Source: Desulfovibrionaceae bacterium (GTDB lineage: Bacteria; Desulfobacterota; Desulfovibrionia; Desulfovibrionales; Desulfovibrionaceae). Taken from it: a stretch of 32,686 nt of DNA. Every line of letters begins with the position of its first letter. Position 1 is the first letter of the stretch. A program made the position numbers and the translations under genes. The stretch spans positions 1-32,686 of the forward strand of contig JAFTDR010000028.1 in NCBI GenBank assembly GCA_017454105.1, in the 5' to 3' direction. Of this stretch, positions 4,419 through 10,929 are shown one piece after another. Below the pieces are notes generated by a model. It saw only the letters and a program-made list of their open reading frames with translations. It was not told the origin of the DNA and ran no database searches.

Positions 4419-5289
4419 ATCTAGGGCACAGACGTGTCTCTTAGGTGAAGTCCCGAACAACCGAACAGCCGAACAGGGGGCCGCACTTGGTACGTTTTTA
4501 AGTTCACTGCGAAACAAGACCTTTGGCAACGCGCACATGGGGCTCGCTTCGCGTCAAGGTGAAACTGAAAGAAGGGATAGTATGAGAGTGTCTCATAGGC
4601 TGTAGCCCCACTCAATACGAATTGATGCGTATGGATGCGTATGGAAAAGACTGCAACGATCCAATAAGCAGACAGATCACCGCAAATAGAGAGGATCGGC
4701 CTGGATTTTTGCAGGCAGCCAGCATACGAGGTATGCTTGGTCCGCAATGATTCTTCCCCTGCCGATTCCTTGGGTCACTCTCCTTTGGCGTACGCGGTAG
4801 TACCTTGTGGAAGCCCTGCTACGACAGACAGTCGGTTAGGCGATGTGGCGTAAGCGCACCACACAAGAACAGTCTGTTCCTCTGTGTGTCTTCGTCGAGA
4901 TATGGTATGTCACGACCTCCCGCTTACTGCTTCGCATTTGAAGCGGGGGCTTAGCTCCAGGGTGGGCGCAGCCCCGCAGAGACACCCGTGATACCAAAAG
5001 CAAGGGATTTCTATAGGAACTTCTTATCGGGCGATGCACTCCCAGAACTGGGGGGACAAGCCTCCCGAAACTCTCAGACTGTACCCTTGTCTATGGCAAT
5101 CGTACGTATCGGTCATAACGATGTATCTTTCACGGGTGTACGATGAAATGCGCCTTCTAGCCTACTCTCCAGACATCTTGCGAGCGGCAGAATGCGGTGT
5201 TTGTCAACAATACTACGTTTGAAGAACTACAAAATCGGCGTAGTGCCGCCGCCCCGTGCGCGGATACAGTAATTTTTAGAGAGTTATCC
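4419..5289. other. Gene-poor stretch between atpC and the AAA-ATPase gene
   Basis: About 870 bp in which I find no reading frame with protein-like composition. It holds short tandem repeats (an 8-bp unit of the CCGAACAG type three times near 4453-4477; a 10-bp GATGCGTATG unit twice near 4624-4643), a small hairpin around 4700-4720 (AGCATAC/GTATGCT), and a hairpin-rich block at 4916-5010 described separately. The tail of this stretch is open in the frame of the next gene but does not look coding. Confidence 0.5.
4916..5010 (+). mobile_element. Possible remnant of an IS200/IS605-type element end (hairpin cluster)
   Basis: Two interlocking stems are visible. CTCCCGCTT (4917-4925) pairs with AAGCGGGGG (4941-4949, one G-T pair), and the GGGGCT on the 3' side of that stem can also pair with AGCCCC at about 4970-4975. 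A further GGGTG/CACCC pairing encloses the second block. A CTCCCGCTT / AAGCGGGGGCTT hairpin like this is, from memory, typical of the right ends of IS200/IS605 elements and their omega-RNA. No tnpA or tnpB gene or fragment can be read nearby, so at best this is a decayed end. It could also be an unrelated structured RNA. Confidence 0.28.
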
Positions 5290-6846
5290 ATGCAAGAGTT
5301 GCCAATTGGAGTCCACGATTTTTTCATGATACGCGGCGACAATTTGCTCTATGTCGACAAAACAAGGCGTCTTCTTGATCTTATAGAGAGAGGGCGCCGC
5401 TATTTTTTGGCAAGGCCAAGGCGTTTTGGCAAGTCCCTGACGCTGACTACGCTTGAAGCAATGTTTTTGGGGAAGGCCTCCTATTTCAGAGGCCTTGAGG
5501 CTGAAAAGTGGGTTTCAGAACATGCCCAAAGCCCTTCTCCAGTGCTTAGGATTGACATGAGTCTCCTTTCCACACCGAAGGACGAGAGGGAATTTCATGA
5601 TGCAATGAATCAGATTCTTCAGTTTTCAGCAGATAGGCCTCTTGCTTTTGAAAAAGACTGCTCTCTAACATTTGCCAATCTTATTAGAAAAATATATCAA
5701 GAATCCGGCAGTGTTGTTGTTTTGATTGACGAGTATGATTCACTTATTCTTGCGAATATAGATGATACATCTTGCGCAAATTCCATGAGGCTTTTATTGT
5801 GTCCTTTCTATATGACACTCAAGGCATTGGATAGATATCTCCGATTTGTCTTTATAACTGGTATTTCTAAATTCAGTAAGGTCGGCGTTTTTTCGGCCAT
5901 GAATAATCTTCAGGATATTTCCTTGAGTGAAAAGTATGTCGATATTGTCGGGTATACTCAGCAAGAACTCGAGATGAATTTTTCTGAATATATTCAATCT
6001 ATTGCTGCGAAAAAAAGTTGGACACAGTTTTCCTTGTCTGACACAATTAAAATGTACTATGACGGTTTTTCTTTTGATGGGAAAACAAGAGTTTATAATC
6101 CGTATTCACTTCTTACTTTTTTTTCGAGCGGGGAAATAGCAAATTATTGGTATGAGTCTGGATCGCCTACCTTTATTGTGAACTGGATGAGGAAAAACGG
6201 AATTGATGCACCAGATGAGTACAGCGGCATAGAGGTTGGGCTTGATTTCACAAGTTCGTTTGAGATTGAAAATGCGAAACCCTATAATTTGTTGTACCAA
6301 AGCGGTTATCTGACACTTCGTAAAAAGGAGGGCAATCTCTACACTTTAGATTATCCGAACAAAGAAGTCCTTGACTCTCTTTCCGCACTCTATCTTGAGT
6401 GTGTGTACCGCGTATCCTCCTTTGCCTCTCTCGGTGCTGATCTCTGGCGGGCTCTTTTGTCCTGCGATCTCACGCGTCTTGTCGCACTTTTTTCCCAGGC
6501 CCTTTCGTCGATTCCGTATGAGGACTTTAAAAATCGTGACGAGTACTGGTATCGCTCACTCTTTCTTATGCTTTTGCGTGGTGCTGGTATTCTTGTTTTT
6601 TTCGAGGTACACTGTGCAAAAGGAAGAAGTGACCTTATTCTTGTCACAGGCAAAGCCTACTACGTATTTGAATTTAAACGCAGTCCTAATGCGGCAGGCG
6701 TCGAGCGCGCAGCAAGGCTTGGTACGCGACAGATCCGCGCACGTGACTATGCCGGAATTGTTGTAAACCGGGGGCTGCCTTGCGTGATGGCGGTGCTTGT
6801 TGCCTGCGATTGCGATAGGACCGTCTCTCTGCATACCGTTGAATAG
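5290..6846 (+). CDS. AAA-ATPase-like protein with C-terminal PD-(D/E)XK nuclease domain
   Basis: 518 residues, matching the AAA-ATPase-like plus DUF1703 (PD-(D/E)XK superfamily) architecture common in gut and host-associated bacteria. After an N-terminal YVDKT motif it shows a Walker A-like PRRFGKSLT (43-51), a Walker B VVVLIDEYD (142-150) and a sensor-like FITGISKFSK (188-197). The C-terminal nuclease core has D448, E461 and K463 in the D-x12-ExK pattern (SDLIL ... FEFKR). All key residues are kept, so it is probably functional, but the role is unknown. The ATG at 5290 gives the conserved start MQELPIGVHDFF; the frame is open 31 codons further upstream without protein character. Codons are AT-richer than in neighbouring genes, especially at 5640-6320, which suggests horizontal acquisition. 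Confidence 0.85.
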   Translation: MQELPIGVHDFFMIRGDNLLYVDKTRRLLDLIERGRRYFLARPRRFGKSLTLTTLEAMFLGKASYFRGLEAEKWVSEHAQSPSPVLRIDMSLLSTPKDEREFHDAMNQILQFSADRPLAFEKDCSLTFANLIRKIYQESGSVVVLIDEYDSLILANIDDTSCANSMRLLLCPFYMTLKALDRYLRFVFITGISKFSKVGVFSAMNNLQDISLSEKYVDIVGYTQQELEMNFSEYIQSIAAKKSWTQFSLSDTIKMYYDGFSFDGKTRVYNPYSLLTFFSSGEIANYWYESGSPTFIVNWMRKNGIDAPDEYSGIEVGLDFTSSFEIENAKPYNLLYQSGYLTLRKKEGNLYTLDYPNKEVLDSLSALYLECVYRVSSFASLGADLWRALLSCDLTRLVALFSQALSSIPYEDFKNRDEYWYRSLFLMLLRGAGILVFFEVHCAKGRSDLILVTGKAYYVFEFKRSPNAAGVERAARLGTRQIRARDYAGIVVNRGLPCVMAVLVACDCDRTVSLHTVE

Positions 6847-7151
6847 GCTCTATACGAATGCTCGCTTCTCCGTTCTACTCAATTGTACGCAAAGATTTTC
6901 AAGTCCACGTGGCAACTTTTTTTCTGACCGCAGAATACTCTCGTTCAGAGTGGACGCTGCACTGTATCTGCCGTGTGTAGTCAGTGACTGCAAAAAAGAA
7001 GCAAGAATGCCTTAAAAAACTGAAAAACCTGTTTCTTAGGGCTCCCGAGCTTGGCCGATATATCATTCCGCGCGCAATTTTTGCCTGCCCAATTCGCCCG
7101 AACACAAAGTCTCAAGTTGACAGAGCGGACGAATTGGGGATGTGCAATGGC
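6847..7151. other. Intergenic region between convergent genes
   Basis: About 300 bp between the stop of the AAA-ATPase gene and the stop of nifS. Apart from the inverted repeat at 7084-7142 (separate entry) I see A- and T-rich runs (7008-7035) but no gene and no clear terminator for the plus-strand gene. Confidence 0.5.
7084..7142 (-). terminator. Long-loop hairpin just after nifS, possible transcript end
   Basis: CCCAATTCG (7088-7096) and CGAATTGGG (7130-7138) form a perfect 9-bp inverted repeat. Read on the minus strand the stem extends through a U-G pair to about 13 bp around a loop of about 25 nt. It begins 13 nt after the nifS stop. There is no good T-run after it, so it may protect the 3' end or act in another way rather than terminate by itself. 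Confidence 0.4.
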
Positions 7152-8303
7152 TTAAGATTTGAAAGGCGAGAGTTTGCGCAGGGTTTCTATAATGCCTGGG
7201 AGCGTTTCGAGAACTTTGGTTATCTCCTCGTCCTTTGTGTAGCGCGAAAGGGAAAAGCGAACTGAACCGTGGGCAAAGCTTTGGGGGACGTGCATTGCAC
7301 CAAGAACATGGCTTGGCTCAAGGCTGCCCGAGGTACAGGCCGAGCCTGAACTCGCGCATATGCCGTAGCGATCGAGCATAAGGAGAATCGCTTCGCCCTC
7401 GACGTTTTTAAAAGATATATTGCTCGTGTTTGGGAGCCTGTGTGCGCGGTCGCCGTTTACGCGGCTGTTTGGTATACGCTCAAGGAGCGTCTGTTCCAGA
7501 CGATCCCGCAGGATGCGCACATTGTCTTCAGCACGAACGCTCTCTTGCGCGAGTCTACAGGCTGCGCCGAGAGCGACAATCGATGCCGTATTCTCTGTCC
7601 CTGCGCGCCGTCCGCGTTCCTGATGGCCGCCGCGAATTAAGGGGCGGAAGAGCAGTCCCTTGCGGATGTAGAGCCCGCCTATACCCTTCGGCGCGTGGAG
7701 CTTGTGGCCTGAGAAGGAGAGCATGTCAACTGGCAGGCTTTTTGTGTCAATCGGGATTTTGCCTGCCGCCTGCACGGCGTCTGTGTGGAAGAGTATCCCT
7801 TTGTCCTTTGCCATGCGCGCGAGCGTGTCTATGGGGAAGAGAGTGCCTGTCTCGTTATTCGCAAACATTATGGAGACAAGAGCCGTGTCAGGGGTGAGGG
7901 CCTGGGCGTAGAGGTCGAGATCGAGTCGTCCTTCATCGTCCACCGGGATCTTGGTTACATGGTAGCCTTTGCTTTCGTAGAAACGCGCGCAGTTGAGTAT
8001 GGCTGGGTGTTCGACACTGCTCACAACAAGATGCTTTTTTTCCGGCTGAAGCTCGGTTGCCGTGAAAAAGGCGCTGTTGTCGGACTCTGTGCCGCAGGAG
8101 GTGATCAGTATCTCCTCGGGAAGGGCGCCGAATAGGGCTGCGATCTCCTCGCGGGCGGAGGCTATTTTCTTACCGACCTCACCGCCGAAGGAGTACATGC
8201 TTGAAGGATTGCCGTAGAACTTGGTCAGATACGGCTGCATGGCCTCGTAGACTTCCGGCGCGATGGCTGTTGTCGCGTTGTTGTCAAGATAGATTACGTC
8301 CAT
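7152..8303 (-). CDS. nifS: Cysteine desulfurase NifS
   Basis: PLP enzyme that takes sulfur from cysteine and passes it as persulfide to the NifU scaffold. 383 residues from the ATG at 8303 (MDVIYLDNNATTAI, the family start). The longer open frame upstream is only the overlapping end of nifU in another frame. Lys201 in SFSGHK is the PLP lysine, and Cys323 in SSGSACTSGS is the persulfide cysteine. The loop around Cys323 is of the class I (NifS/IscS) type. The start lies one base after the stop of the upstream rrf2-nifU frame, so the two are surely cotranscribed. It is the last gene of the metA-nifU-nifS operon. Confidence 0.96.
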   Translation of the reverse strand: MDVIYLDNNATTAIAPEVYEAMQPYLTKFYGNPSSMYSFGGEVGKKIASAREEIAALFGALPEEILITSCGTESDNSAFFTATELQPEKKHLVVSSVEHPAILNCARFYESKGYHVTKIPVDDEGRLDLDLYAQALTPDTALVSIMFANNETGTLFPIDTLARMAKDKGILFHTDAVQAAGKIPIDTKSLPVDMLSFSGHKLHAPKGIGGLYIRKGLLFRPLIRGGHQERGRRAGTENTASIVALGAACRLAQESVRAEDNVRILRDRLEQTLLERIPNSRVNGDRAHRLPNTSNISFKNVEGEAILLMLDRYGICASSGSACTSGSLEPSHVLGAMHVPQSFAHGSVRFSLSRYTKDEEITKVLETLPGIIETLRKLSPFKS

Positions 8304-8304
8304 C

Positions 8305-9522
8305 TCAGACCTCCAGAACGCAGAGAGTCGGCTCGACCTTCTTGCGCAGTAGTGCTTCAATGTCCGCCCTGAGTGTTTGGGGCACAGTGCCAGTGAAGGA
8401 CAGGCTGACACTGTTTCCATCGACCTCGATAAGCTCAACGCTTGCCCCATGGGGAAGAGTGGGCGAAATGTCACTGTCAAGGAGTTTCATGACTGCCCGC
8501 ATGCGCTGGACATTGGTGAGCTTAGGCGCGCTTTTTTTCTTTTGCGCAACGTTGAGTTCAGAGGCGAGTATCTCGGCGATAGTGTCCCTGCATTCTCCAC
8601 AGGCACCGCCGGCCTTGGTATAGTCTGTGACAGCCTCAACGCTTGTGAGCCCATTCTCCCGTATGGCCCGGACTATCTGCGCGTCGGTTATGCCAAAGCA
8701 CTTACAGACGAGCTTGCCGATTTCCTGGGCGTGCGGCACGGCTTTTTCCCCGCGCCAGTTTCTGAGAGCCGCCTCAAGGGCCTCCTGGCCCATGACGGAA
8801 CAGTGCATTTTTTCTCTGGGAAGGCCGCCCAGTTTTTCGACGATGTCCTTGTTTGTGATCGCGCTAGCCGCATCGACATGCATGCCGATCACCATGTCTG
8901 TCAGCACGGAGCTTGAGGCAATGGCGCTCGCACAGCCGAATGTCTCAAAGCCTGCGTCCTCGATAATGCCGTCCTTCGAGATTTTAAGGTACAGACGGAG
9001 CGCATCGCCACAGGCGAGGCTTCCGACCTCGCCGATTGCGTTGGCGTCGGCTATGGGGCCGGCATGGTGGGGATTGAGAAAGTGATCGTGGACAGCCTGC
9101 GTGTAGTCCCACATAGGTGCTTTCCTTGTGCTGCGCGCGAGCAGACTCTTAAGGTTTGTCGCGCGCAGATAGCGGTTAAGGTAGGCGTCAAAATCCTCCC
9201 AGAAGAGCCGCGCCGCGCATTGGGCGCTGCGCTCGCAGGGAGTGTCAAGACAGGGGACAAGAGTGCGTGTCCCCTCAAGTTTCAGGAGAATTGTGTCAAG
9301 CGGGATTGTGGCGGGATTTTGGATAAGCGTGTAGCCGCCTCCGCTGCCGCGGATCGAGCGGAAGAGCTTTAAGGGGCGGAGAATGCCGACAATTTGCTCA
9401 AGATAGCCGACTGATATGCCTTCCTCGCTCGCCACCTCGCGCAATGTCAGCGTTTCGGGAAATCGCTCGGCCAGGCGGAGGAGAAAACGCAGACCGTAGC
9501 GAGAGCGTGTTGAGAAATGCAT
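8305..9522 (-). CDS. nifU: Fusion of Rrf2-family regulator and NifU Fe-S scaffold
   Basis: One uninterrupted frame of 405 residues with four parts. Residues 1-135 are an Rrf2 (IscR-like) winged-helix regulator (MHFSTRSRYGLRFLLRLA, GISVGYLEQIV, RGSGGGYTL) with cysteines 91, 96 and 102 (CX4CX5C), the pattern that binds [2Fe-2S] in this family. From 137 (MWDYTQAV) the protein is NifU: an IscU-like scaffold with C171 (ACGD), C197 (FGCAS) and C241 (HCSVMG), then a BFD-like [2Fe-2S] domain with C273/C275 and C308/C311. Residues about 337-405 form an Nfu-like domain without the usual CXXC. AAGGA lies 8 nt before codon 137 (position 9114), so NifU alone may also be made. GAGGCGG overlapping the metA stop serves the full-length start. 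Probable role: Fe-S cluster assembly with self-regulation. Confidence 0.92.
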   Translation of the reverse strand: MHFSTRSRYGLRFLLRLAERFPETLTLREVASEEGISVGYLEQIVGILRPLKLFRSIRGSGGGYTLIQNPATIPLDTILLKLEGTRTLVPCLDTPCERSAQCAARLFWEDFDAYLNRYLRATNLKSLLARSTRKAPMWDYTQAVHDHFLNPHHAGPIADANAIGEVGSLACGDALRLYLKISKDGIIEDAGFETFGCASAIASSSVLTDMVIGMHVDAASAITNKDIVEKLGGLPREKMHCSVMGQEALEAALRNWRGEKAVPHAQEIGKLVCKCFGITDAQIVRAIRENGLTSVEAVTDYTKAGGACGECRDTIAEILASELNVAQKKKSAPKLTNVQRMRAVMKLLDSDISPTLPHGASVELIEVDGNSVSLSFTGTVPQTLRADIEALLRKKVEPTLCVLEV

Positions 9523-9529
9523 TGCCGCC

Positions 9530-10471
9530 TCAGTTGAAGGTCGATCTGTGGCAGGTCGGAATGGCGCTCAGGCTGAAGGGTGTCTCCTGGTAGACGTAGA
9601 AATTGAGCCAGTTACTGTAGAAAAGATGGGCGTGGGCCCGCCAGTTCATGGTTGGAATGGAGCTTATGTCGCCGTCTGGGTAGTAATGTTCTGGGGGAAG
9701 GGGATCTAAGCCTCGGCCAATGTCTCTGTGGTATTCGGCATCGAGGGTATCCCGATCGTATTCAAGGTGACCTGTGATAAAGACCTGGCTGTGATCCCTG
9801 TTTTCAACAATTGTGAGTCCCGCCTCGCGCGAGGCCGCAAGAATGCGTAAGTCTGGGACGCGCAGCACGTCTTCAGAGCGGATTTCTGTTTTCCGCGAGT
9901 GGGGCGCGTAGAAAATATCGTCAAAACCGCGGAAGAGACGGCATTCGGGATGAAGGATGTGGTGTTCGTAGATGCCGCTCACTTTCCGTTCAAGGATATA
10001 TTTTGGCACGCGGAAGAAATGGTAGAGCGCCGCCTGCGCAGCCCAGCAGATGTAGAGTGTTGAGTAGACGTGCTGCTTCGCGTATTCCATGATCCTGCGC
10101 AATTCATCCCAGTAGTCGACCTCTTCGAATGGGAGATGCTCGACAGGGGCGCCTGTGACGATCATGCCGTCAAAGCTTGTGTCCGCTATGCTGTCAAAGG
10201 TTTTGTAGAAGCGCTCAAGATGCTGTGCGGGCGTGTTTTTTGATTCGTGCGCCTCTGTGCGCAGAAGGGTGATATTGACTTGAATTGGGGAATTGCCGAG
10301 GAGTCGTAAAAGCTGCGTCTCGGTCGCAATCTTTGTCGGCATGAGATTCACGATCGCGATTTCAAGGGGCCGTATGTCCTGTGTGTTTGCGCGATCGTCT
10401 GTCATGACAAAGATGTTCTCGTTCTCAAGGGCCAGTCGCGCGGGAAGATCTGTTGGAATTTTTATTGGCAT
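9530..10471 (-). CDS. metA: Homoserine O-acyltransferase MetA (predicted acetyl-CoA type)
   Basis: First committed step of methionine synthesis: activates homoserine for sulfur transfer. 313 residues, full length for the family. The catalytic Cys142 (YICWAAQAALYHF), His235 and Glu237 (ITGHLEYD) are present. Residue 111 is Glu (TGAPVEHLPFEE). In characterised MetA proteins Glu here selects acetyl-CoA and Gly selects succinyl-CoA, so O-acetylhomoserine is the predicted product, despite the common name homoserine O-succinyltransferase. GAGAGGA lies just before the ATG at 10471. First gene of the operon with rrf2-nifU (7-nt gap) and nifS. Confidence 0.95.
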   Translation of the reverse strand: MPIKIPTDLPARLALENENIFVMTDDRANTQDIRPLEIAIVNLMPTKIATETQLLRLLGNSPIQVNITLLRTEAHESKNTPAQHLERFYKTFDSIADTSFDGMIVTGAPVEHLPFEEVDYWDELRRIMEYAKQHVYSTLYICWAAQAALYHFFRVPKYILERKVSGIYEHHILHPECRLFRGFDDIFYAPHSRKTEIRSEDVLRVPDLRILAASREAGLTIVENRDHSQVFITGHLEYDRDTLDAEYHRDIGRGLDPLPPEHYYPDGDISSIPTMNWRAHAHLFYSNWLNFYVYQETPFSLSAIPTCHRSTFN

Positions 10472-10501
10472 TCTGTCCTCTCTTTCCTTATTCCACCGAA
10501 T

Positions 10502-10529
10502 ACAATAGTAATCTACTAGGTTTTGTCAA
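10502..10529 (-). promoter_or_regulatory. Predicted promoter of metA-nifU-nifS with internal palindrome
   Basis: On the minus strand TTGACA (10529-10524) is a perfect -35, followed after 16 bp by TATTGT (10507-10502). The spacer contains the palindrome TAGTA-ATC-TACTA (10506-10518), placed where a bound repressor would block RNA polymerase. The metA start lies about 30 nt downstream. Confidence 0.6.
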
Positions 10530-10570
10530 TGCGGCAGTTTGGACTTTTGAGATGTTTTTGAGAAAAACAA

Positions 10571-10615
10571 TTGCTTTCCCAAGTCCTTCGATGTACACTC
10601 GTCACACTTTGTGTG
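10571..10615 (+). promoter_or_regulatory. Predicted promoter of the atpZ-atpI-atpB-atpE operon
   Basis: TTGCTT (10571-10576), 17 bp, TACACT (10594-10599). Directly after it, across the expected transcription start, is the palindrome CACAC-TTT-GTGTG (10603-10615). This placement supports ATG 10645, not the in-frame ATG at 10591, as the atpZ start. The palindrome could be an operator or a 5'-end hairpin. Confidence 0.45.
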
Positions 10616-10644
10616 GAACCATATCAACCGCTGGGGCCAAGCCG

Positions 10645-10929
10645 ATGCACTCTCAGGAAAACACTCCCGATAAGCCGAAAAGCGCGGGTTTCCGCGATTT
10701 TTTATCCCAGCAGCGCGACGGCATGAGTGCCCTGTCGAGTGTTGGGGTCATTGGTCTGCATATGGTGAGCGGTCCGCTTGTGGGATTTGCGATCGGCTAT
10801 GGTATTGACACATGGCTTGGCCTGCACCCGTGGGGAAAACTTGTGTTTCTGATAATCGGCATAGGCGCGGGCTTTTTGAATGTCTACCGCGACACGCAGA
10901 TTCTCCTTAGGCGCATGGCGAAAAAGTAG
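10645..10929 (+). CDS. atpZ: AtpZ/AtpI-family ATP synthase accessory membrane protein
   Basis: 94 residues, two predicted membrane helices (about 35-56 and 63-82) with the conserved pattern GPLVGFAIGYGIDTWLG then a second hydrophobic segment ending GFLNVYRD. This is the ATPase gene 1 (AtpZ) family, small proteins encoded at the head of atp operons and implicated in Mg2+ transport or c-ring assembly. I choose the ATG at 10645 because a predicted promoter covers the upstream in-frame ATG; the ribosome-binding site is weak. It is 9 nt from the next gene and leads the F0 operon. Confidence 0.75.
   Translation: MHSQENTPDKPKSAGFRDFLSQQRDGMSALSSVGVIGLHMVSGPLVGFAIGYGIDTWLGLHPWGKLVFLIIGIGAGFLNVYRDTQILLRRMAKK

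Follow-up and report, generated by a model that had tools for sequence, protein, structure and literature searches.

A fused rrf2::nifU gene in Desulfovibrio as the probable source of a regulator-scaffold hybrid and of free NifU

The window analysed here, a 32,686-nucleotide stretch of a Desulfovibrionaceae genome, carries on its minus strand an operon in which rrf2 and nifU are joined into one reading frame, within a gene order (metA-rrf2-nifU-nifS) that is common to relatives. The first operon gene (9530..10471), which by its sequence is presumably metA, encoding homoserine O-succinyltransferase, has a conserved position upstream of rrf2/nifU, and the start of the next gene sits 7 nt past its stop codon. 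That next gene (8305..9522) is a single open frame of 405 codons in the window's list of open reading frames, and Pfam and NCBIfam profiles identify its 405-residue product as a fusion of Rrf2 with NifU. Its Shine-Dalgarno sequence (SD), GAGG at 9528..9531, overlaps the metA stop codon. The cysteine desulfurase gene nifS (7152..8303; TIGR03402, 588.7 bits against a cut-off of 530.75) starts 1 nt past the nifU stop. Upstream of metA, and on the same strand, lie a sigma-70-like promoter, TTGACA-16-TATTGT (10502..10529, 10 of 12 matches), and, overlapping it, a predicted operator in the form of an imperfect inverted repeat, AAAACCTAGT-N5-ACTATTGTAT (10500..10524).

Within the fused protein, Pfam places Rrf2 at residues 4-129 (9136..9513), NifU_N at 140-260, a BFD-like [2Fe-2S] domain at 271-320 and a weakly matching Nfu domain at 344-399. 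The N-terminal part belongs to the Rrf2 superfamily (PF02082, 90 bits, cut-off 30; TIGR00738, 88 bits, cut-off 73.3), falls below the cut-offs for both IscR proper (TIGR02010, 69.6 bits versus 207.55) and CymR (NF047409, 78.1 bits versus 195), and has a winged-helix motif together with three cysteines of the IscR kind (Cys 91, 96 and 102, spaced C-x4-C-x5-C), three cysteines also being present in every one of the five fused proteins described below. The cluster ligands of E. coli IscR are likewise three cysteines, spaced C-x5-C-x5-C. The remainder is NifU proper both by profile (TIGR02000, 298.6 bits versus 273.3) and by its three scaffold and four BFD-type cysteines in the alignment, and its terminal Nfu domain is degenerate, lacking the CXXC motif (PF01106, 21.4 bits, below the cut-off of 27). 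We found no second Rrf2 and no second NifU_N in the window's genome, the fusion being the sole one found of each; a SufB/D-type protein is also encoded, so the organism may not depend wholly on NifU.

The NifU part has a candidate start of its own inside this frame. Codon 137 is an ATG (9112..9114), AAGGA (9123..9127) stands 8 nt upstream of it, and the TIGR02000 match begins at residue 137 with profile position 1, all of which bears out the original prediction that a NifU start, with its own SD, opens at codon 137 of the fused frame. Initiation there would give a free NifU of 269 residues (8305..9114) composed of IscU-like, [2Fe-2S] BFD-like and degenerate Nfu domains; between codons 30 and 137 we found no other in-frame ATG, GTG or TTG.

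Taken alone, the window's site does not rise above chance. Its duplex energy against the anti-SD octamer is -5.2 kcal/mol, compared with -4.9 at the first start, and an SD at least as good occurs at 15 of the 168 ATGs that lie internally and in frame in 25 genes of the window (its own site counted), a total that is approximate because for four of these genes (nifS, 14111, 17409 and 23538) the start was assigned manually to a position that is not a start codon, and in two of the four (nifS and 14111) that position lies outside the gene's frame or its frame is unchecked. Nearly the same fraction, 10.3%, reaches -5.2 among 466 internal ATGs of rule-called ORFs from the five fused loci, and the predicted mRNA accessibility of the internal start was no better than that of random internal ATGs. 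So weak and ordinary an SD is compatible with the internal SD and ATG being an unused relic, in which case just the 405-residue hybrid would be made and would do both jobs, having by itself all the domains that these require.

Across orthologues, by contrast, the site does stand above chance. The fusion is present at full length and without a stop in 5 of 79 Desulfovibrio genomes (G000, which is the window's, G014, G081, G080 and G032), and because these five species carry it with different linkers (STRKAP, LKEES, FQEEH, FWRNEH and REETV, in that order), a sequencing or assembly artefact was ruled out as its source. The original prediction had named loss of the ATG and SD from relatives that keep the fusion as its own refutation, and both are retained at the junction in 5/5 fused genes, which supports an internal nifU start. 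In the same order of genomes, the internal SD energies are -5.2, -12.1, -10.3, -9.3 and -10.3 kcal/mol and those of the first start are -4.9, -8.1, +0.6, -4.7 and -4.2, so that the internal SD is the stronger in all five, by just 0.3 kcal/mol in the window. The level seen in the other four (-9.3 to -12.1), whose strong SDs lie in the same place as the window's, is reached by only 0.9% of the 466 internal ATGs. As the linker residues differ and the four-fold degenerate sites of nifU are near random (29-47% identical between the five fused genes), we read the retention of ATG and SD as maintenance rather than inertia; an unused relic should have decayed over such a distance, yet this site has been kept in every fused gene, and strongly in four.

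The bases that resemble an SD could instead be a by-product of the linker's amino acid sequence or of chance, with Met137 kept for reasons of the protein. Given the linker residues, 8-42% of random synonymous-codon draws for a gene do as well as the observed energy (0.16, 0.08, 0.42, 0.08 and 0.13 for G000, G014, G081, G080 and G032), and the combined p of 0.035 is favourable to a selected SD yet modest, so that part of its retention could stem from residues such as Glu-Glu. As a full account we find this very unlikely in view of that combined value and of the fact that the SD-encoding residues differ between genes, the SD occurring in more than one codon phase (within W-R-N in G080, not E-E).

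In unfused relatives the same ATG is the ordinary start of nifU. A search of the 79 genomes of the genus matched nifU in 74 at an E-value of 1e-20 or better; 67 of these are tabulated, and the other seven (G023, G025, G030, G031, G035, G095 and G096) each have rrf2 and nifU as separate matches. Among the 67, rrf2 is separate and ends, in a different frame, 14-29 nt beyond the nifU ATG in 31 genomes, its stop precedes nifU in 17, 14 are without rrf2 and 5 are fused. All 62 unfused nifU genes begin at this same ATG with an SD (-7.3 to -11.5 kcal/mol in those with rrf2), and it is the shared gene order and the unfused layout that mark it as an ordinary nifU start. The frame length in G099 suggested a further fusion and proved to include three stops between rrf2 and the nifU end, and long upstream frames or partial matches at L065, L068 and L071 were without Rrf2. 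Outside the genus, no fusion was found among the matches listed from 247 genomes of the order (cut-off E 1e-75), in 395 genomes of the phylum (cut-off 1e-85) or among 80 of 583 wider genome-contig matches, searches that diverged fusions below the cut-offs would escape.

Evaluating the history of the fusion, we placed the five fused species and three species without Rrf2 (G024, G083 and G079) in one clade (support 98/96) on a NifU tree of 58 rows, which holds one copy of each locus and 7 of the 80 wider-search loci. On a MetA+NifU+NifS tree of 36 genomes, chosen by hand from the 67, G079 joins fused G080 (99.5/100), G083 and G024 join fused G081 (100/100), and the branch to the other species has 100/100. 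On these trees the fusion is ancestral to the eight-species clade and its Rrf2 half was lost twice inside it, since one fusion followed by two losses takes the fewest steps. The Rrf2-less members keep the nifU start, with SD energies of -10.3 (G083), -7.4 (G024) and -5.8 (G079) kcal/mol; nifU thus came out of each loss with a start and SD of its own, as would be expected had that start already functioned within the fused gene. An ancestral fusion, in a clade with four-fold identity of 0.29-0.47 and with two losses of the Rrf2 half, speaks against a fresh fusion carrying a fossil ribosome-binding site, an option that the original prediction had left alongside the two-product one and that we set aside. 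Two losses of the Rrf2 half with NifU retained also need a working nifU start, and this, with the retention described above, makes the unused relic improbable in our judgement.

The C-terminal CXXC of the Nfu domain, read by eye in the same alignment, is absent from all eight clade members and present in the other 50 of the 58 rows. Its loss, at 8305-8500 of the window (minus strand) and also at L002, L003, L004, L031, L032, L034 and L035, coincides exactly with the eight-species fusion clade.

An inverted repeat, TTGACAAAACATAGT-N5-ACTATGTTTT, which the original prediction had overlooked, lies over the promoter upstream of metA in most relatives. With a position weight matrix trained on 40 unfused genomes, the fused and Rrf2-less ones remaining outside the training, the window's operator scored 19.3 and the five fused loci 12.1-27.2, against a best of 9.9 in 1300 shuffled regions, and the only window match to the core AAAACMTAGTNNNNNACTA with at most two mismatches is the operator itself, with none (0.16 expected). 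The operator is present in 45 of the 48 Rrf2-bearing genomes (5/5 fused and 40/43 unfused, the latter figure being partly circular because the matrix was trained on 40 of those genomes) versus 2 of 13 without Rrf2, counts that leave out four genomes whose sequence upstream of metA could not be read and G087, in which no metA was found; G012 is included in the operator-score table. This predicted site therefore tracks the regulator gene, as in an autoregulated iron-sulfur operon, and its conservation is in part that of the -35 and -10 boxes themselves. The two Rrf2-less genomes that have it, G024 and G083, are sisters of a fused species. Counting the -35 box plus left half-site across the window's genome gave 8 occurrences, equal to the 8 of the reversed control, and thus gave no sign of a regulon extending past metA.

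A sigma-70-type scan of the minus strand across 7000-10700, the interior of rrf2 included, found no promoter-like site other than the one upstream of metA. Free NifU might otherwise be translated from an mRNA of its own, whose 5' end is set within rrf2 by initiation or processing; with no sigma-70-like minus-strand site between 7000 and the operon promoter, one promoter type having been scanned, we regard this source as exceedingly improbable.

The Rrf2 half has diverged more than the rest of the protein, the other four fused Rrf2 halves being 49-56% identical to the window's versus 65-72% for NifU. Together with a first-start SD that falls short of the internal one in 5/5 genes and with the two losses of the half in the clade, this could mean that useful amounts of free NifU alone are made behind what is now a decaying leader. 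We give that reading very little credence, since the open frame, the winged-helix residues and the three cysteines have been kept in all five despite the divergence, as has the operator. Retention of the operator in 5/5 fused genomes versus 2/13 Rrf2-less ones suggests that autoregulation by the fused Rrf2 half probably still works.

Given these lines of evidence, we think it rather likely that the ATG at 9114 is an authentic nifU start, still in use within the fusion, with the hybrid regulating the operon and free NifU doing the bulk of assembly; by its sequence, the one gene would probably make both proteins. A single mRNA covering metA, rrf2::nifU and nifS would be transcribed from the metA promoter, ribosomes starting at 9522, beside the metA stop, would make the Rrf2-NifU hybrid, and ribosomes starting at 9114 would make free NifU. 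The Rrf2 half of the hybrid would then bind the inverted repeat that overlies the metA promoter and so repress the operon, the putative signal being an iron-sulfur cluster bound by the three cysteines of that half, and free NifU with NifS would account for most iron-sulfur assembly. Counting against this two-product reading are the window's SD, which is weaker than the other four and no better than background, the null result for accessibility, the modest codon test and the operator in Rrf2-less G083 and G024.

How much of each product might be made bears on a further part of the original prediction, which had the hybrid in minority and the free scaffold in excess. An internal SD that is stronger in 5/5 genes agrees with this, in the window by a gap of just 0.3 kcal/mol, relative SD strength being the measure used throughout; an excess of free NifU over the hybrid is therefore likely in the four relatives with strong sites and weakly indicated in the window's species, where the two SDs are about equal. 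A more tentative idea, which we rate as possible and somewhat doubtful, is that the hybrid is a self-loading sensor: a cluster built by the NifU half would pass in cis to the Rrf2 half, repression would thereby read the occupancy of the scaffold directly, and internally started free NifU would set the ratio of sensor to working scaffold.

That Rrf2-family proteins regulate iron-sulfur operons is known, and autoregulation of the IscR type operates on the isc operon of E. coli and reportedly on the isc-suf operon of R. sphaeroides. The rrf2::nifU locus resembles these systems in having an Rrf2-family regulator with three conserved cysteines in an iron-sulfur operon, and an operator at the operon promoter. 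It differs in joining regulator and scaffold in one polypeptide, in the NifU type of that scaffold, in an operon led by metA and in a TIGR02010 score far below the cut-off. Gene fusion usually imposes a 1:1 ratio on two proteins, and here selection seems to have kept the start signal of the second gene, which would leave the ratio of hybrid to scaffold free and would have let the scaffold gene continue unchanged when the regulator half was lost. The fusion further puts an iron-sulfur regulator in one chain with the scaffold whose product regulators of this kind presumably sense, so that how a regulator acquires its cluster becomes a question testable in one protein. Genome annotation would list the hybrid alone and overlook free NifU. 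The literature searched, which covers few subscription journals, yielded no account of an Rrf2-NifU fusion.

Internal in-frame initiation as such is of a kind already known (PMC11005335, PMC11899642, PMC6199135). The Salmonella Ribo-RET census describes N-terminal proteoform pairs that arise in this way, like rrf2::nifU in being two proteins from one frame with a second in-frame start (PMC11005335); rrf2::nifU differs in that its second start is that of a formerly separate gene and its short product a complete known protein. Cas11b arises within cas8b in a comparable way: an internal Met there yields the 3' portion of a longer frame as a protein of its own, and effective interference by that same CRISPR system requires this short form (PMC11899642). 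The predicted short form of rrf2::nifU would instead be a biosynthetic scaffold set apart from a DNA-binding domain. The long and short isoforms of AerR, again regulator isoforms that differ at the N-terminus, are separated by 41 residues of one protein and have different regulatory roles (PMC6199135), whereas the rrf2::nifU products would differ by a whole DNA-binding domain.

Several minor observations accompany these results. At L033 / L130 (G068), from a species outside the fused clade, nifU shares the frame of rrf2, and one TAG stop, ending 18 nt upstream of the nifU ATG, is all that divides the two. A second set of species that lack rrf2 at this locus, also outside that clade (L050, L144, L148, L149, L158, L163, L166-L168 and L183), has no operator score above the shuffle maximum. 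The iron-sulfur operon described here is headed by metA. In the window, a 549-residue ORF at 5197-6846 on the plus strand, presumably an AAA-ATPase/PD-(D/E)XK protein by its resemblance, lies between the ATP synthase genes and nifS.
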